Below are positions 9,570 through 36,167 of a stretch of 36,675 nucleotides of DNA, one piece after another. The DNA comes from a virus, in IMG/VR virus record IMGVR_UViG_3300009285_000555, positions 1 through 36,675 of that record. One strand, 5' to 3'. The position numbers were made by a program, and so were the translations under genes. The notes beneath the pieces are model-generated. The model worked only from the letters and a program-made list of their open reading frames with translations. It was not told the DNA's origin and did no database searches. The number at the start of each line of letters is the position of its first letter. Within the stretch, counting starts at the first letter, position 1.

Positions 9570-10031
9570 TTAAGTCTGTTGATATTTTTTTCCTTTACTA
9601 ATATTATCTCTCCACCACATAGGTTTTAGGTTTGTGTAATGAGACGCTTTTCTAAATTCTTCTTCATTTGAGAGATCAAATAAGGAAAGAGGCTTATCGT
9701 GGTCTATATGCCATCCTTTAAAAGCCCAATTATCCCAATTCATGCCTTTTGTAAACTGTTTTTCTAGGTATATTTTTAATTCTGAAACAGAACAGCCAAT
9801 ATCTTTTAGAATGACTGAGTTTTTTGGATTATTTTTAAGTATATAATACAATCTGCCTCTTATTATTGTTCTAAGTTTTTGTGCTTTTAATTGGTTAATG
9901 TTTTCACTGATATTATTCCATTTAAGCCCTTTAAATTTATGGAATAGAGACTGATTTCTAGCTATTATCTTTTCTTTGTTTTTCTTCATAAAATTAATAA
10001 TAAACTTTTTTTTGGCTTTTCCTTGTCTCAT
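9570..10031 (-). CDS. HNH endonuclease, probably homing-type
   Basis: A 153-residue nuclease. A basic helical N-terminus is followed by LKDIGCSVSELKIYLEKQF and the HNH core: GWHIDHDKPLSLFDL (His108, Asp110, His111), HYTNLKPMWW (Asn134) and DNISKGKKY (Asn143). This is the standard phage HNH family in which the region before the core reads GMNWDNW. Such genes are free-standing homing endonucleases or packaging-linked nucleases; here the gene lies next to the divergent control region, far from terminase, so homing is more likely. It has its own promoter, with an almost leaderless start. Confidence 0.8.
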   Translation of the reverse strand: MRQGKAKKKFIINFMKKNKEKIIARNQSLFHKFKGLKWNNISENINQLKAQKLRTIIRGRLYYILKNNPKNSVILKDIGCSVSELKIYLEKQFTKGMNWDNWAFKGWHIDHDKPLSLFDLSNEEEFRKASHYTNLKPMWWRDNISKGKKYQQT

Positions 10032-10255: not shown

Positions 10256-10414
10256 ATGAATAGATCAGAAGCCGCTAAGAAGCGTATTGGGAAGACAAAA
10301 AAAGAGAGAAGTGATATAATGGCTAATATAGCTCGTGTTAAATGGTATAAGATGTCCTCAGATGACCAGTATAAACATATTATAAAAATGGTTAATGGTA
10401 GAAAAAATAAATGA
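10256..10414 (+). CDS. 52-residue basic hypothetical protein
   Basis: The start at 10256 is chosen over 10220 because the promoter's -10 lies at 10243-10248. The product (MNRSEAAKKRIGKTKKERSD...) is rich in Lys/Arg with a helical pattern and may bind nucleic acid; not recognised. It is the first gene of the right arm and overlaps the next gene by four bases (ATGA). Confidence 0.5.
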   Translation: MNRSEAAKKRIGKTKKERSDIMANIARVKWYKMSSDDQYKHIIKMVNGRKNK

Positions 10415-10698
10415 ATAAAAAGGAACAAATAAAAGTTGATAAAGAGTTTCTAATGAAGATGACGAATCAGATTGATAATTTGACTAAACAGTTGGAGGAG
10501 ATGAAGAACAGACCTGTACCGGCTATCGTTAAGGAAATACCAAAAGAAATTCCTACATTAGATTATAAAGTTTCGTTTTATAGTGCTGATCCAAATAAGA
10601 TTGATATTTCAGAATTAAATTTAACTTTTAAAAAAGAAATTGAAAATTTGATGAATAAGTATAAGGTCGTGAAATTTGTAATGGATTATAAGAAATGA
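10411..10698 (+). CDS. 95-residue hypothetical protein with short coiled coil
   Basis: An N-terminal coiled coil (residues 5-35, KVDKEFLMKMTNQIDNLTKQ) is followed by a Pro-rich hinge (RPVPAIVKEIPKEIPTLDYK) and a C-terminal alpha/beta segment. Not recognised. ATGA overlaps link it both to the gene before and to the ParB-like fragment after it, suggesting that the ancestral operon continued directly into the ParB-methyltransferase gene. Confidence 0.5.
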   Translation: MNKKEQIKVDKEFLMKMTNQIDNLTKQLEEMKNRPVPAIVKEIPKEIPTLDYKVSFYSADPNKIDISELNLTFKKEIENLMNKYKVVKFVMDYKK

Positions 10699-10796
10699 AA
10701 ATTGGTCTTATTAAACCTTATAGTAAAAATGCTAAAAAACATCCTGCTAAACAAATTGAACAGGTGGCCAATTCTATTAAAGAGTTTGGTTTGTAA
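10695..10796 (+). pseudogene. truncated 5' end of a ParB-domain gene
   Basis: The 33-residue frame MKIGLIKPYSKNAKKHPAKQ-IEQVANSIKEFGL* matches the first 38 residues of the downstream ParB-methyltransferase ([28 protein letters not shown]) and stops exactly where that protein continues into its ParB core. Its ATG overlaps the preceding stop, as expected for the original start of the operon gene. It looks like the stranded 5' part of an older copy, separated by the endonuclease gene inserted at 10821-11240. Confidence 0.7.
10724..10744 (+). repeat. 21-bp direct repeat flanking the endonuclease gene (mate at 11271-11291)
   Basis: The 21 bases here recur exactly at 11271-11291, 547 bp downstream, within the corresponding codons of the ParB-methyltransferase. 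The two copies are in the same reading frame relative to their ATGs, so recombination between them would delete the endonuclease gene and leave an intact fused ParB gene. Confidence 0.8.
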
Positions 10797-10814
10797 AACC
10801 TTTTATGATACAAT
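10786..10814 (+). promoter_or_regulatory. promoter of the endonuclease gene
   Basis: TTGGTT (10786-10791), 17 bases, TACAAT (10809-10814) preceded by TGA (extended -10). The -35 lies inside the last codons of the ParB fragment. ATG 10821 is six bases after the -10, implying a leaderless mRNA. Confidence 0.5.
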
Positions 10815-10820
10815 ATGGGT

Positions 10821-11240
10821 ATGAAAACCCATAGAATGTCTAAAACAAGATTTTATAAGATATGGAAAGGAATTTTTACTAGGTGTTATAATAAGAATTA
10901 TAAATTATTTAAGGATTACGGAGGCAGAGGAATAAAAGTATCTGACGAATGGCATAAATTTGAAAACTTTAGAGATGATATGTTGGCAGAGTATAAAGAT
11001 GACTTAAGTATTGAAAGAATTGATAATAATGGAAATTATTGCAAAGAAAACTGCCGATGGGCGACAAAGGAAGAGCAGAATAGAAATAAAAGAATGCACA
11101 AATTAACAAGAGATAAGGTAATTGAAATAAGGGATAAATATGAATATGGGAAAGGTAGGATGTTGTCAAAAGAGTATGGTGTAACACCAGCGGTTATATC
11201 AGAAATAGTTAATAAAAAAAGAAATTATGCAAATTATTGA
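10821..11240 (+). CDS. homing-type endonuclease (GGRGI-family) with C-terminal HTH
   Basis: A 139-residue protein of the phage family with the signature [38 protein letters not shown] and [14 protein letters not shown]. These are usually annotated as HNH/AP2-like mobile endonucleases. The C-terminus ([37 protein letters not shown]) is a helix-turn-helix of the kind that homing endonucleases use for target recognition. ATG 10821 is preferred to ATG 10815, which abuts the -10. The gene overlaps the start of ParB-methyltransferase by 14 bases and is flanked by duplicated ParB sequence, which supports mobility. Confidence 0.65.
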
Positions 11241-12474
11241 TTTTAAAATAGAAAATATCAAGCCATACCCTAAAAATGCTAAAAAACATCCGCAAAAACA
11301 AGTAGAACAGATAGCAGACAGTATAAAAGAATTTGGGTGGGGACAACCCATAGTAATAGACCAAAACAATGAGATAATAGTTGGACATGGTCGCTATGAA
11401 GCCGCCAAACGCTTAAAATTGAGCGATGTGCCTATCTTACAGGTAAACTTGACCAAAGAGCAGGCTAAGGCTTATAGACTCGCTGACAACAAATTAAATG
11501 AATCTGAATGGGACATGGGATTGGTCATAGAAGAACTTAAGGGATTAAGTGATGAGATGTTTGATTTGACTGGGTTTGATAAAGACCTAATCATAGAACC
11601 GGACGAAAAAGACGATATAATACCTGAAAATGTAGAACCAAAAGCTAAATTAGGGGATTTATATAAATTAGGAAATCATAGAGTTTTATGTGGAGACAGC
11701 ACAAAGATTGAGGATGTGGAGAGGTTGATGGATGGTAAGAAGGCGGATATGGTGTTTACTTCACCACCATATTCAGATATGCGTGAGTATGAGGGTGGAA
11801 AAGATTTATCGGTTGGTAATATAATTAAGTTTATACAGGTGTTTGAACCATTTTGTACTTATCAAGTAATTAATTTAGGGATACAAAGAAAAGAAGGTGC
11901 TATTTATAGATACTGGGATGATTATATAGATTTTGCTGAATCAGTTGGTTATAAATTGTTATCTTGGAATATATGGAATAGGGAAGAAGCACGCAGTGTT
12001 GGTCAAGCAACCGCAATGTTTCCGATTCAACATGAGTTTATATTTGTATTTGGTTATGAAAAAGGTGAATTAAAAAAGACTGTTGAAAGTAAAACAGCAG
12101 GTAGACAACATACATCAGGTCAAAGACAAAAAGATGGTTCTATGGTTTATAGAGAACATAAAACACATCCATATAAAGCAATAGGAACTGTTCTAACTGT
12201 GGGAGTAGAAAATACTAATAAGACTAATCATCCCGCAGTATATCCTGTGATACTGCCAGAAGAATATATTAAGGCAATGGCACAATCAAGTGTAATTGAC
12301 CCATTCTTAGGCTCTGGTTCTACTCTTATAGCCTGTGAAAAGACAAACAGAATATGCTACGGAATGGAGCTCGATCCCAAGTATGTTTCAGTTATTATAG
12401 AAAGATGGTGTAAATATACAGGGATAACAAAAATAGAAAAGAATGGAGAGACCATGGAATGGGAAAATGGATAA
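11227..12474 (+). CDS. ParB-domain / DNA methyltransferase fusion
   Basis: A 415-residue fusion. Residues 1-120 are a ParB/Sulfiredoxin-like domain ([24 protein letters not shown] at 50-61, the GxGR box). Residues 140-400 are an N4/N6-type methyltransferase: [18 protein letters not shown], catalytic TSPPYS (178-183), and SAM-binding [13 protein letters not shown] (358-370). The TSPPY form suggests N4-cytosine rather than adenine methylation. Such fusions are common in phages just upstream of terminase genes, where they may mark phage DNA against restriction or regulate packaging. It follows the homing endonuclease; no Shine-Dalgarno precedes it. Confidence 0.85.
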
Positions 12475-12516: not shown

Positions 12517-12864
12517 ATGAAAAAGCCTAAAAACAAAGACAAAAACAAAGGACACAGCAATTTGATTTTTATAAAAAAAGGGGAGAGACTTAATCCTAAT
12601 GGTAGACCTAAAGGGCAAAAGAATTATGCCACACTTAGACGAGAAGCTATTATTGCTGTTGGAAAATTAAACGGAAAGACTGCTGAAGAAATAGAAATAA
12701 TGTTACATAGTAAGGGAATTTCTGAAGCGTTAAAAGGAGATTTTAGATTTTATAAAGATGATCTCGATAGAACCCACGGGCAAGCATTACAGAAAATAAG
12801 TGATCCTGATGGAAATCCCATCACTCCAACTATTATTTTTATTCCTGAACCGTATAAAGAATAA
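12517..12864 (+). CDS. terminase small-subunit-like protein (DUF5681-like)
   Basis: A 115-residue basic protein. The N-terminus KKGERLNPNGRPKGQKNYAT matches the DUF5681 type (NPxGRPKGxxN) seen in small proteins directly before large terminase genes. An EAIIAVGKLNGKTAEEIEI helix and DFRFYKDDLDRTHGQ follow. It probably recognises phage DNA for packaging, though DUF5681 proteins are not proven small terminases. It overlaps the large terminase by one base (TAATG). Confidence 0.65.
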   Translation: MKKPKNKDKNKGHSNLIFIKKGERLNPNGRPKGQKNYATLRREAIIAVGKLNGKTAEEIEIMLHSKGISEALKGDFRFYKDDLDRTHGQALQKISDPDGNPITPTIIFIPEPYKE

Positions 12865-14222
12865 TGGAATGGCGCCCGCAAGAAGGAAAGCAAACCGAGG
12901 CTTTAAGATATAGGGTCTTTGAGGAACTTTATGGTGGAGCAAGAGGTGGAGGTAAGACTGCGGCTGGTATTGCTTGGCTTGCTATTGATATTGAACATCC
13001 TAAGTATCGCGCTTTGGTAATTCGTAAAAATGCAGATGACTTGAAAGACTGGATCGACAAAGCTAGAGCTTTGTATGTGCCTATGGGAGCCACTGTGACT
13101 GGGCAAAGTCCAGAGATACGATTTCCTTGGGGAGCTGTAATACGAACTGGACACTTGAATGATGATAACGCTTACGAGAAGTATCAAGGGCAGGAATATT
13201 GTAGGATTTTAATAGAGGAATTGACACAGATAGCTACAGAGGAGAGATATTTAAAATTGATTTCTTCTTGTCGTTCTGCAATACCTGAATTAAAAGCCAG
13301 AGTGTTTTGCACAACTAATCCCGGAGGGGCTGGACATGAATGGGTTAAGAAACGTTTTGTTGATGTGTGTGAGCCGATGAAAGTATATAAAGATTTAGAT
13401 ACAGGGAGAAGTAGAGTATTTATACCGGCAACAGTGAGTGATAATCCTATTTTAAACAAAGCTGACCCGGGTTATATAAAGTTTCTTGACGGATTACCTG
13501 ACGCATTGCGTAAGGCATGGCGAGATGGTAATTGGGATAGTTTTGCGGGACAGTATTTTGGAGAATGGAATAAAGATGTGCATGTCGTTGAACCATTTGC
13601 CGTGCCTGAGTCGTGGGTTAAAATACGCGGAGTTGACCCCTCTGGCCGTGCCGGTACAACCTCTAGCCATATTTACGCGATAGACACTGATGGAATTGTT
13701 TGGGTGGTCCGGGAACATTACAAAAGCGGATTAGACGCTGACCAGCATGCTAGGGAAATCGCTTTAATGTCTGAAGGGTTTAATATCCATTATACGGTGA
13801 TAGACTCATCTGCATTTAGTAAGTTAGGACTTCCTGAAACAATGGCTGAAATATATGAGAGAAATGGGGTGAATGGACTTGTGCCGGCGTCTAAAGATCG
13901 TGTGACAGGATGGAATGTTGTGCATCAGTATTTACGACATGATAAGGACAATAAACCTAAAATAAGGATATTTAGTAATTGTATTAATCTTATACGAACA
14001 ATACCTTTAGCGATATTTGACGAACGAAAACCAGAGGACATTGAGACAAAGTATCAAGGGGCGGAACATAATGACGCACTTGATGAAATAAGATATGTGT
14101 TGCAAACATTGAGAGAACAGAGATCTCCTAGACCGCTTTCGATAGTCGAACGAAGATTGCAAGAATTAAAGGAAAGAGATAGTCAATACAGTTATCGCTA
14201 TTCAAGAGAAAACGTGATATAA
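12864..14222 (+). CDS. terL: terminase large subunit
   Basis: The 452-residue packaging motor. The ATPase domain carries Walker A GGARGGGKT (residues 24-32), Walker B ILIEEL (115-120) and coupling motif TTNPGG (150-155). The RNase H-like nuclease domain has Asp258 (GVDPS), Asp314 (TVIDSS) and an HNDALDE segment (402-408), the three acidic positions expected. It converts ATP hydrolysis into DNA translocation through the portal and cuts concatemers. Its position between the small-subunit-like gene and portal is canonical. The start is fixed by the TAATG overlap. Confidence 0.95.
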   Translation: MEWRPQEGKQTEALRYRVFEELYGGARGGGKTAAGIAWLAIDIEHPKYRALVIRKNADDLKDWIDKARALYVPMGATVTGQSPEIRFPWGAVIRTGHLNDDNAYEKYQGQEYCRILIEELTQIATEERYLKLISSCRSAIPELKARVFCTTNPGGAGHEWVKKRFVDVCEPMKVYKDLDTGRSRVFIPATVSDNPILNKADPGYIKFLDGLPDALRKAWRDGNWDSFAGQYFGEWNKDVHVVEPFAVPESWVKIRGVDPSGRAGTTSSHIYAIDTDGIVWVVREHYKSGLDADQHAREIALMSEGFNIHYTVIDSSAFSKLGLPETMAEIYERNGVNGLVPASKDRVTGWNVVHQYLRHDKDNKPKIRIFSNCINLIRTIPLAIFDERKPEDIETKYQGAEHNDALDEIRYVLQTLREQRSPRPLSIVERRLQELKERDSQYSYRYSRENVI

Positions 14223-32642: not shown

Positions 32643-35600
32643 ATGGAGACAATAGAAACAAGAAAAAAATTAGCAGATGGTATAAGAACACTGCAAGTCA
32701 GCGGTGATACCGATAGCATAAATCGGCTTGTTTCGGCGTATAAAAGCAAATATCAAACGTCAGAATCGGCGGAAAAAGAGCCGTCATTTTTAGGTGGTAT
32801 TGCTAGAGACGTGTCTCGTCCTTTTGCTCGTCTAAGTCAAAATATAAGAGCGACAGGCGAAATAGCAACTGGAACTCCTTATGAAGAAGCTATAAAGCCT
32901 GTACAAAGTAAATATTGGGGTGAATTAAAACCAGTAGGACAAGAAGGCACCTTTGGACAAAGAGTGGGCGAGTCTTTCGGTGTGGGTGCTCAAATCGCTT
33001 CTAATTTACCTTTTACTGGGGGCGTTACTGGCATTGCAAAAGCTGGATTAAAAGGACTGATAAAACAAGGATTAAAAACTGGCGTTAGAGAGGGTGTAGC
33101 TGGTGGTGCGCTATATGGAGGGGGTAAAGCCGCAGAGGAGGGTAAAGGAATTGGTGAAATTGCCAAGGAAACCGCTTTAGGCGGCGCGCTTGGCGGTCTT
33201 GGTGGCGGAATATTGGGTGGATCAGTGCCTGTCGTTGGGAAACTTTTAAAAGGTGCGAAAACAGCTATCTTAAATCCAGTGGATTATATCGAATCTAAAA
33301 TTCTAAGCAAATATGAAAAAGGAGTAAAACCTTTGCTCCCGGGGAAGACTACACCAAGCCAATTAAAAAATTATCGAAGTAAAGTCATTGATGCAGGATT
33401 AACTATTAATGAAAATAAAGCAAATTTGAATTTTTCTGATGATGTGGGAGATGAAGTTGTAGGACAAAATCCAAAATCATTACAACAACTCGCTGATTCA
33501 GTAGAGCAAACTAAAAAAAGAGTATTTTCAGAATATGACACTCTTGCTAAACAAGCAGGAGAAGCAGGAGTGACAGTAGATATGGCACCTATTGCCTCTG
33601 AACTTGATTCAGTAATAAATAACAAGGCTCTTGCTATAACTAGTCCTAAAACTATCCAATATGCGCAACAAGCACAGGAAAGGCTACTTACCGCTGGTAA
33701 ACTTGACACTGTAACTGCACAAGAGGTGGTGCAGAATTATAACAAATCTTTAGAAGCGTTTTACAGAAATCCAAGCTATGATAATGCCTCACAGGCGGCA
33801 GTAGATGCTATGCTTGCAAATAATATGAGAAAAGCTCTTGATGAAGGTATAACTGGACTTACAGGAACCCAATATCAAGCGTTGAAAAATAAATATGCTT
33901 CGCTTAAAGCCATTGAAAAAGATGTTATAAAAGCTGCACTACGCGATGCTAGAAAGAATGTCAAAGGATTGATTGATTTCACTGATATATTTTCTGGAGG
34001 TCAAGTAGTTAATGGAATCCTTACAATGAACCCGGCTGCAATAGCCCAAGGTTTTACTCAAAAGGGTATTGCTTCTTTGTATAAGTTTATGACTGATCCA
34101 AATAGAGCGATTGCAAAAATGTTTCAATCTATTGAAAAAAACGCTCAACGATTAAGACAGTCAAGAAATTCTGGGAACATTCTATTGCAAACCCAAGCTA
34201 ATAACATAAATCCTACTAAACCTATTATAAATGCCATATCTCCTATTATCGCAAGTAATGGAAAAAAGTCAATACCGATAATAAGTAAATCAAAAAACTT
34301 TAATTCACCAGTTTTAGGGAAAATTGAAAAATTTGAGGGGGATGAAAATTTTGGAATGATTAAAATTGAAAAACGGCATCCTGATGTTCTCCCTTATCTT
34401 GATGAAGCAATGCAAAAAGCTAAAATAATCGAAAAATATCCCGACATGTCTATACTTGAAGCTAATGTAGGTAAACAAAAAATTAGGCTAATTGTAGATC
34501 ATCAGTTAGGAACTAAGGATGGTACTGTACCAAAATTGTTTTTAAATAATGCTTATTTTGTGCCTAGAGAGGGACTCGAACCCACGACTTTTCGCGCTTC
34601 AGGCGAACGCTCTACCACTGAGCTATCTAGGCCTATTGACAGTATACCAAAACCGCAGAGGAAGTCAACCGCATCGCAAGTGGATAACTTACAAAAGAAA
34701 TCTATAACTAATACCCTTAAAAAAAAAGGTGAACAGCAAGCATTTGGAGCAGTAGCGGGAATTGAAGAAGACAAAGAAAAAGGCGGAATAAAATTTGATC
34801 CTAAAAAGGCGGCTATTGGAATTGGTGCTATCGGAGCTGTAAGTAGTAAATCTGGAAAAAAAATCGGAGAACAGGTATTTAAAGGGTTTAAAGATTTATC
34901 TACAAAATTAGTTGAAAAATTAAAAGGCAGGAGTGAGGTATCTAAACAATTCATAAGCGACTTAACTAACTCTCCTGACTTAAAACAAGTTGAAAAAGAT
35001 GTTATTCGCAATATACTTGAGACAGAAAAAGGCGTAGTGAATGTGCCAGAGTTTGCAAAGAAAGTGCAGGCGGAGCTGGTGCCTCTCAAGGTGAAAAGTA
35101 GTGATGTAATAAATGCGAAAGCTAAAGATCACTACTCTTCTAATTATATGCGGAGCGAAGGAGATTTTTCTTCTAAGTATGAAAATATAGCTCTCCCAAA
35201 AGAGATAAGAGGAAATGTAGCTGATTATAAAGAAAACATATATGAAAGTCCTATAACCACTTCAGCGGGTGATGTTCACTTTAATTACAATACTAGAAAC
35301 TACTTCGGTCACACTCGTATAGAAGACATGGCAGACAACAAAACCAGACGTGTTATAGAAGTGCAGAGTGATTTGTATCAGAAGGGGAATTTGGAAAGAG
35401 AAAAAAATTTATGGGCCGAAATGGGCCCCAACGAGAGTAAAAACAGTATGGAGTTAAAATACGGACATAAGGGGTTTGCGGATAAAATGGCGAAAAGAAG
35501 GACAGACGTAGCCAAACTCCAACAATACAACGACCCCACAGCCCACTTCCGCATGGTACGAGAAGAAATAAAGAAAGCCGCGCAAGACGGTAAAACTAAA

Positions 35601-36167
35601 CTTCAATTCCCTACAGGAGAGATAGCTATGAAAATAGAAGGATTGGGAGAAAATTATGATTTCAAATGGCACAACGGAAGCAAGATGGAAGCATCTGATT
35701 TGACTAAAGACACTATTGGTGGGTACTTCAACAATAATGGTGAAAACTGGATAATCACCGACATCCTCGGAGATGGGAAGTTTAAGGCTATGCCAAAAGA
35801 ACATTTTGATTCATTTGTAGAATCTAAGGGACTTACTATATCTGGTGAAGACTTAATATCATACGCAGAACACCACGCAACTAAAAACTTCTGGGGTTCA
35901 AAAGAATCCTTTGACATCTCAGGCAAAGTAGACACCAACAATCCTATTTATAAATTTTACGAAAAAGACTTAGGCAAATATGTAACCAATAAATACGGAG
36001 CAAGAAGAATAACAGACGACAAAGGTGTATCATGGTATGAAGTGCCTATTAAAAAAGATTATACTAAATTACCAATAGAAGCTTTCGCCTTTGCTCCGCT
36101 TACTTTCTTACCTAAAAGAAAAGACGAGAAAAAGAAATCATTACCATTTAACTTTATAAAAAAATGA
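32643..36167 (+). CDS. 1174-residue internal virion/polyvalent protein hosting an antisense tRNA
   Basis: The N-terminal third contains Gly-rich hydrophobic segments (GVAGGALYGGGKAAEEGKGI, GGALGGLGGGILGG) suited to membrane penetration. A helical middle follows (VDMAPIASELDSVINNKALA). Around residues 565-640 a domain with KRHPDVLPYLDEAMQKAKII...KIRLIVDHQL...LNNAYF resembles the barnase/EndoU-like (BECR) nuclease modules of phage polyvalent proteins. Residues 640-683 are simply the antisense translation of a tRNA and its promoter. The C-terminus (GHTRIEDMADNKTRRVIEVQ-SDLYQKGN, FYEKDLGKYVTNKYGARRI) matches the large polyvalent-protein associated pattern. No methionine allows the second half to start alone before the NYMRSEGDF stretch. 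Likely ejected with the DNA. Confidence 0.6.
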   Translation: METIETRKKLADGIRTLQVSGDTDSINRLVSAYKSKYQTSESAEKEPSFLGGIARDVSRPFARLSQNIRATGEIATGTPYEEAIKPVQSKYWGELKPVGQEGTFGQRVGESFGVGAQIASNLPFTGGVTGIAKAGLKGLIKQGLKTGVREGVAGGALYGGGKAAEEGKGIGEIAKETALGGALGGLGGGILGGSVPVVGKLLKGAKTAILNPVDYIESKILSKYEKGVKPLLPGKTTPSQLKNYRSKVIDAGLTINENKANLNFSDDVGDEVVGQNPKSLQQLADSVEQTKKRVFSEYDTLAKQAGEAGVTVDMAPIASELDSVINNKALAITSPKTIQYAQQAQERLLTAGKLDTVTAQEVVQNYNKSLEAFYRNPSYDNASQAAVDAMLANNMRKALDEGITGLTGTQYQALKNKYASLKAIEKDVIKAALRDARKNVKGLIDFTDIFSGGQVVNGILTMNPAAIAQGFTQKGIASLYKFMTDPNRAIAKMFQSIEKNAQRLRQSRNSGNILLQTQANNINPTKPIINAISPIIASNGKKSIPIISKSKNFNSPVLGKIEKFEGDENFGMIKIEKRHPDVLPYLDEAMQKAKIIEKYPDMSILEANVGKQKIRLIVDHQLGTKDGTVPKLFLNNAYFVPREGLEPTTFRASGERSTTELSRPIDSIPKPQRKSTASQVDNLQKKSITNTLKKKGEQQAFGAVAGIEEDKEKGGIKFDPKKAAIGIGAIGAVSSKSGKKIGEQVFKGFKDLSTKLVEKLKGRSEVSKQFISDLTNSPDLKQVEKDVIRNILETEKGVVNVPEFAKKVQAELVPLKVKSSDVINAKAKDHYSSNYMRSEGDFSSKYENIALPKEIRGNVADYKENIYESPITTSAGDVHFNYNTRNYFGHTRIEDMADNKTRRVIEVQSDLYQKGNLEREKNLWAEMGPNESKNSMELKYGHKGFADKMAKRRTDVAKLQQYNDPTAHFRMVREEIKKAAQDGKTKLQFPTGEIAMKIEGLGENYDFKWHNGSKMEASDLTKDTIGGYFNNNGENWIITDILGDGKFKAMPKEHFDSFVESKGLTISGEDLISYAEHHATKNFWGSKESFDISGKVDTNNPIYKFYEKDLGKYVTNKYGARRITDDKGVSWYEVPIKKDYTKLPIEAFAFAPLTFLPKRKDEKKKSLPFNFIKK
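34561..34632 (-). tRNA. tRNA-Phe (GAA)
   Basis: The minus strand folds into a full 72-base cloverleaf: acceptor GCCTAGA/TCTAGGC (7 bp), D arm GCTC-AGTGGTA-GAGC, anticodon stem TTCGC/GCGAA with loop CTGAAGC (U33, anticodon GAA), variable AAGTC, T arm GTGGG-TTCGAGT-CCCTC (one U-U mismatch), discriminator A. No 3' CCA is encoded. It lies entirely inside the open frame of a plus-strand virion gene, producing the EGLEPTTFRASGERSTTEL stretch typical of antisense-tRNA translation. G at position 37 is unusual for tRNA-Phe, in which A is the rule. Confidence 0.9.
34641..34690 (-). promoter_or_regulatory. promoter of the embedded tRNA
   Basis: On the minus strand: AAGTTATCCAC, CTTGCGATGCGG, TTGACT (-35, complement of 34663-34668), 16 bases, TATACT (-10, 34641-34646) with TGG upstream. 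The tRNA 5' end follows eight bases later, so the predicted transcript starts about two bases before mature tRNA. The upstream box is the same as in the phage's own early promoters. Confidence 0.75.

Follow-up and report, generated by a model that had tools for sequence, protein, structure and literature searches.

In a 36.7-kb IMG/VR virus record (the window, by which we mean the whole stretch of DNA analysed), a free-standing HNH endonuclease gene separates the orphaned start of one ParB gene from an intact ParB-methyltransferase gene that begins differently. Comparison with related phages makes it fairly probable that this enzyme is a homing endonuclease targeting the phage ParB-methyltransferase at the codons for FG-xx-(Q/E)P, and that the gene in the window has gained a foreign 5' end while the resident's own was left stranded. 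The stranded piece is a 33-codon stub whose end point is shared with stubs in other phages; the junction recurs beside enzymes of the same subfamily, the endonuclease gene overlaps the ATG of the gene that follows, and the two N-termini are of different ancestry. The initial annotation had described a mobile element that regenerates the 5' end of its target gene after insertion, a mechanism that holds in outline for the window locus but claims too much when applied generally.

The ParB region and its genes

The region comprises the following features, in order of position.

10411..10698, + strand: 95-aa gene, function unassigned; its stop overlaps the ATG of the ParB stub (ATGA)
10695..10796, + strand: orphaned ParB N-terminal stub, 33 codons; phrog_620, E 7e-9, profile positions 12-43
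10724..10744, + strand: 21-bp direct repeat, copy 1, exact
10774..10814, no strand: left end common to the window and L220, TATTAAWGWGTTTGG-TTTGTAAAAC...; local alignment score 24, reached by 0 of 2000 shuffles
10815..11240, + strand: HNH endonuclease; phrog_3377, E 1e-40; model pLDDT 88.6
11100..11237, + strand: C-terminal helix-turn-helix with the motif marking the ParB-associated subfamily, found in 8 of 138 distinct HNH loci
11220..11229, + strand: AGAAATTATG, the conserved HNH 3' end, whose ATG is the ParB start codon; the same in L138 and L339
11227..12474, + strand: intact ParB-domain DNA methyltransferase, 415 aa; ParB_N PF02195, E 1e-8; N6_N4_Mtase PF01555, E 2e-20
11271..11291, + strand: 21-bp direct repeat, copy 2, exact
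11329..11349, + strand: EFGWGQP codons, where the stubs in four phages end; EFGWGQPI in 2 of 90 ParBs, atypical
12517..12864, + strand: DUF5681-like gene, following the ParB-methyltransferase in many relatives
12864-14222: terminase large subunit, directly after the DUF5681-like gene

The upstream gene (10411-10698) does overlap the stub by ATGA, as had been proposed, and a search for relatives of its 95-aa product gave none. The stub encodes MKIGLIKPYSKNAKKHPAKQIEQVANSIKEFGL before its stop codon, reads EFG-L-stop at its end and corresponds in PHROGs to the start of ParB families, its best matches being to the loci L003 and L230 (27 of 32 residues each). The intact gene, with a 5' end unlike the stub, begins at an ATG within the final HNH codons, and no reading frame runs across the HNH gene to join the stub to the intact ParB. 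The HNH gene itself probably starts at the in-frame ATG at 10821 (MKTH), judging from its relatives in L138 and L220. A promoter for this gene, with a -35 element in the last codons of the stub, had also been suggested, but found no support: no site at that position passes a promoter scan, the spacer from TTGTAA (10791-10796) to TACAAT is only 12 nt, and promoter-like sites are about as many in the region as in shuffled sequence.

The 21-bp direct repeat, TAAAAATGCTAAAAAACATCC, is exact and in the same frame at both places, as first reported. Recombination between the copies had been proposed to restore an uninterrupted gene; the repeat is explained by a conserved peptide, KNAKKHP, written in AT-rich codons, and no deletion form was seen.

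The HNH protein, of 139 aa, combines a nuclease domain of the homing-endonuclease class, recognised by profile match (E 1e-40 as above; phrog_374 at E 4e-39), with a separate C-terminal DNA-binding domain, for which residues 94-139 of the model align to helix-turn-helix proteins with Z up to 5.1 and which matches a phrog_517 helix-turn-helix. Pfam and PDB sequence searches with the protein gave nothing significant, Foldseek with its model returned no match below E 0.001, and the HNH nicking enzyme 4h9d aligned to the model with a Z of only 3.1. A group I intron or an intein around the HNH gene was considered and rejected, since Rfam found no intron in 10400-11500 and the reading frames are not continuous.

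Two further observations concern other parts of the window. A second nuclease gene, endonuclease VII-like (phrog_1035), lies at 9570-10031 on the - strand, with the primase gene on one side and the ParB region on the other. A tRNA-Phe(GAA) at 34560-34632 (-) lies antisense within an ORF of 1174 aa (32643-36167, +), which reads VPREGLEPTTFRASGERSTTELSRP there, the antisense translation of the tRNA; it may be a tRNA that was inserted, or may mark a site of recombination.

Two ParB N-termini of different ancestry

ParB-methyltransferase genes were gathered from about 90 viral contigs, and 127 loci with a ParB N-terminus were compared. The window is the only one among them with two ParB N-termini, and the HNH gene does lie between these, as the initial annotation had described. 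The closest uninterrupted ParBs begin like the stub (MDVSQIKPYSKNAKKHPAKQIQQVANSIKEFGFNQP in L003; MKISDIKPYPNNAKKHPAKHIQQVASSIKEFGMNQP in L009, where the stub-like start reads MKISDIKPYPNNAKKH), so the initial annotation withstands its own refutation check, which asked whether ParB-methyltransferases share the start of the fragment. In many of these relatives a DUF5681-like gene comes next after the ParB-methyltransferase, as it does in the window.

Over residues 6-37, 24 of 35 near relatives are more similar to the stub than to the intact N-terminus and 5 show the reverse, in a comparison that spans 32 residues of sequences that are themselves related. As the stub is the nearer of the two to the ParB of related phages, a foreign 5' end would appear to have replaced the resident's; most likely the stub is the resident ParB 5' end, and the 5' end of the intact gene has another ancestry. 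Aligned with 11245-11336 of the intact gene, the stub is 72% identical over 92 nt without gaps, and the two differ at 7 first, 5 second and 15 third codon positions, of 31 each, which is the pattern expected of two ParB lineages that were both functional. An in-place duplication of the 5' end (a target-site duplication) was rejected because most differences between the copies are at third codon positions and it is the stub, not the intact copy, that is nearer to the relatives. Tandem ParB genes as the ancestral state were also set aside, as none occur among the other ParB loci.

Further into the protein, a rise in the identity of the intact ParB to its relatives past residue ~78, considered as a possible mark of the right-hand crossover, lies within the spread seen for other pairs; the relatives are 50-70% identical. 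The ParB-methyltransferase genes of these phages are mosaics. Across methyltransferase residues ~201-320, identity among relatives (the window gene, 11227-12474, and L003-L082) is 6-23%, as opposed to 50-90% in the flanking segments; this is the probable target-recognition part, with specificity seemingly swapped as a module, or else the alignment fails there. A different arrangement is seen in L056 (1835-4211), where a ParB gene is followed by two successive methyltransferase domains and then by a DUF5681-like gene.

A ParB-associated endonuclease subfamily

The C-terminal motif SEI[V/K/I]NxxRNY is shared by the window and seven relatives (8 of 138 distinct HNH loci), and every motif-bearing locus with readable flanks adjoins ParB-methyltransferase sequence. 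Within the phrog_3377 / phrog_374 HNH genes this subfamily alone is tied to ParB genes: no ParB stub was found upstream of the other HNH loci examined (138 distinct in all), and in the GenBank phages with the closest full-length HNH matches (H41, H42, H47, H66) none of these genes adjoins ParB. Bacterial genomes yielded five HNH relatives, none of them of the SEI[V/K/I]NxxRNY subfamily. The distribution of the subfamily is sporadic, the enzyme being absent from nearly all of the 127 ParB loci. The ParB-adjacent endonuclease pattern is real and recurrent.

A ParB stub precedes the HNH gene at five loci, namely the window, L220/L221, L271, L272 and L218. The HNH protein of L220/L221 is 69% identical to that of the window; its gene follows that phage's own stub, MDIKQIKVSELKPYEQNAKKHDSKQIKQVANSIEAFGFN, and precedes the terminase small subunit, and no ParB body was found elsewhere on the 34-kb L220 contig. 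L271 likewise has a stub (MESIAIDKIKPYPRNAKKHPA, ending earlier, near its residue 22), the HNH gene and the terminase small subunit. The stub of L218 (...SLSRFG) is followed by the HNH gene and then by the end portion of a methyltransferase, phrog_498 positions 390-435, and that of L272 (...SIQKFGCVE) by the HNH gene and the next gene. All four relatives (L220, L271, L218 and L272) lack the ParB body for the most part or altogether.

At three loci, the window, L138 and L339, a ParB gene starts at the ATG within the HNH 3' end. In L138 the ParB-methyltransferase that starts at this same internal ATG is about 30% identical to that of the window. In L339 (about 2400-2620) a 70-aa frame from which the HNH domain has gone, leaving only the helix-turn-helix tail, overlaps the ParB start, as a decayed or domesticated endonuclease remnant. 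In L340 it is the terminase small subunit that starts at the conserved internal ATG, the upstream flank being the contig end.

The ParB N-termini that adjoin the HNH sequence in the window, L138 and L339 are no more alike than the rest of the proteins. As these N-termini have no extra likeness, and the ParB body is missing to the extent described in the four relatives, the 5' end is not conserved cargo of the element. The regeneration of the target's 5' end that the initial annotation proposed is seen in the window locus, where a complete 5' end follows the HNH gene, and does not extend to the family as a general property.

The break point and the proposed target site

In phrog_620 positions, the stubs end at 43 (window), 45 (L220), 43 (L218) and 46 (L272), such that four of the five stop at the conserved FG-xx-(Q/E)P codons. 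Were breaks uniform and independent over 400 codons, the chance of four of five falling within four codons would be about 1.5e-5. The conservation of the stretch is seen in G37, present in 88 of 90 ParBs, and P41, present in 84 of 90. The view that a mobile endonuclease gene interrupts the ParB gene gains support from this break, which recurs at the FG codons in three unrelated phages. That several phages have their scars at the same codons makes the cleavage site both predictable and testable.

The site reads EFGWGQP in the window, a form found in 2 of 90 ParBs, EFGILQP in L138 and RFGFVQP in L339, where the nuclease domain has been lost. The uninterrupted ParB genes of L003 and L009 have EFGFNQP and EFGMNQP. 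The forms in the carriers are in keeping with a rule of altered sites in carriers, although only suggestive of it, and the atypical EFGWGQP, as a single motif, is suggestive of protection of the intact copy from self-cleavage.

The left side of the element may also hold a record of past events. Between its own stub and its HNH gene, L220 has a decayed second piece, TATTAATGTGTTTGGTTTTGTAAAAC, that matches TATTAAAGAGTTTGGTTTGTAAAAC of the window, the end of the stub together with the left end of the element, better than any of 2000 shuffles did. This second piece matches the window's ATTAAAGAGTTTGG; the shared left end (10774..10814) comes, in L220, after the ParB stub of that phage. Read most simply, the second piece records a previous visit to this site, and the element took along part of an earlier ParB target. 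The left end of L138 was tried as a relic of the same site and dropped as too weak, 64 of 2000 shuffles being as good.

A model for exchange of the ParB 5' end

In the model that we favour, the C-terminal helix-turn-helix would guide the nuclease domain to the FG-xx-(Q/E)P codons of ParB, and the resident ParB gene of an ancestral phage would have been broken there. The repair template would have been a genome with the endonuclease ahead of its own ParB gene, and repair would have copied in the endonuclease along with the 5' portion of a ParB gene from another phage, starting at the ATG in the last HNH codons. On the right side, the donor ParB would pair with the recipient ParB and be joined to, or replace, the resident body, making a full-length protein possible. 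On the left side, donor and recipient would share little, so that the join would fall at the break, stranding the first 33 resident codons as a scar. Should the right side also fail, most of ParB would be lost, as may have occurred in L220, L271, L218 and L272. Cleavage at the FG codons, homing and this repair route are all proposed from comparative sequence analysis.

It could instead be supposed that a foreign block of HNH gene and ParB-methyltransferase was spliced illegitimately into the resident ParB by plain mosaic recombination, with a passive endonuclease and with the FG break as a conserved stretch that served for recombination. The mosaicism of these ParB-methyltransferase genes is in keeping with this, as is the place of FG-xx-QP among the most conserved ParB stretches. 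We nevertheless consider it unlikely, as enzymes of the same subfamily lie at this break in three further phages, which are unrelated and have differing right-hand partners, whereas the other HNH genes examined are not at that break and the GHGR stretch, although equally conserved, was not used. If, on the other hand, the HNH gene and ParB codons 1-37 always moved as a strict unit, orphaning the old 5' end and restoring the gene, exactly the form found in the window would be predicted, and the three ParB loci that have their ATG inside the 3' end of the HNH gene would fit. Such an element is distinctly improbable, however, given that the N-termini beside the HNH sequence in the window, L138 and L339 are without special similarity and that no intact ParB follows the HNH gene in four relatives.

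The 33-codon ORF might also be an independent small ParB-like protein or regulator, with the HNH gene encoding a packaging-type nuclease near the terminase genes. The stub is indeed open and ATGA-coupled to the upstream gene, terminase genes do lie downstream, and HNH proteins encoded close to terminases can have a packaging role. This is nonetheless a most improbable account: the other 126 ParB loci have no second, free ParB N-terminus, the stubs of L220, L218 and L272 differ in sequence and have only their end point in common, the enzyme has a helix-turn-helix and a sporadic presence, and in uninterrupted relatives the stub sequence is the start of the full-length ParB gene. For phage annotation this is a caution: a short ParB ORF next to an HNH gene is best regarded as wreckage, not as a gene.

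Homing at the FG codons remains our preferred reading, and what is new is most likely a subfamily of free-standing homing endonuclease, distinguished by an unusual exchange of 5' ends and by an internal ATG that starts the gene behind it. The literature searched, which covered few subscription papers, described no ParB-targeting HNH element. That a start codon lies within the endonuclease gene hints at a way in which such an invader could make its own removal difficult. As a more tentative extension, which we regard as rather doubtful, the family may be a selfish one with a built-in start module (AGAAATTATG) that supplies a start codon to any gene joined behind it; homing at the ParB FG codons would then orphan the old 5' end and pass translation of the new one to the invader, and the L339 tail would perhaps have been kept because the host gene needs it.

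Comparison with known systems

By sequence, the nuclease part of the window HNH protein belongs to the phage phrog_3377 / phrog_374 families. Intronless homing is well described for the free-standing endonucleases SegF, SegG, MobA and MobE of T4-like phages, of which the Mob proteins combine an HNH domain with a C-terminal DNA-binding part; flanking target sequence is co-converted, and host genes may be split, as by MobE in Aeh1 nrdA and MobA in T4 gene 60 (PMC2988022). Likewise, the window enzyme has a nuclease domain and a separate C-terminal DNA-binding part, no intron or intein around its gene, a position beside an apparent target gene and a sporadic presence by the same target, with probable co-conversion of flanking target sequence and host-gene splitting as features in common. 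Unlike the T4 enzymes, the window enzyme is predicted to target a ParB-methyltransferase near terminase genes, leaves an N-terminal stub and holds the start codon of the next gene in its last codons.

Nuclease genes have been reported at the boundaries of genetic exchange between phages, in ICP1 and others (PMC10448857), and the window resembles those cases in having a nuclease gene at a junction of differing ancestries, beside important genes. It differs in that ParB and methyltransferase do not feature in the main text of that report, and no start-codon overlap was seen described there.

A parallel in the product is that of fungal mitochondrial mORFs with duplicated gene ends, known from Allomyces atp6 and from Glomus atp6, atp9, cox2 and nad3, in which it is the 3' end (C-terminus) that is exchanged and the enzymes are of the LAGLIDADG or GIY-YIG kind; the Glomus atp6 copies are 63.5% alike at the DNA level (PMC3630166), compared with 72% in the window. 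In both systems the endonuclease lies between an orphaned native end, which resembles close relatives, and an end in use that comes from a foreign lineage and keeps the gene whole; in the window, native and foreign copies flank the endonuclease, the use of the foreign copy being judged from its intact frame. The differences are that in the window it is the 5' end of the gene that is replaced, and that an HNH enzyme and a phage are involved. The window does not qualify as an mORF in the strict sense, since the replaced end is 5' rather than 3' and there is no conserved cargo. It may instead be seen as the phage mirror image of the mORF event, in which an endonuclease is associated with a new 5' end where the mORFs bring a new 3' end, and the scar marks the target site.
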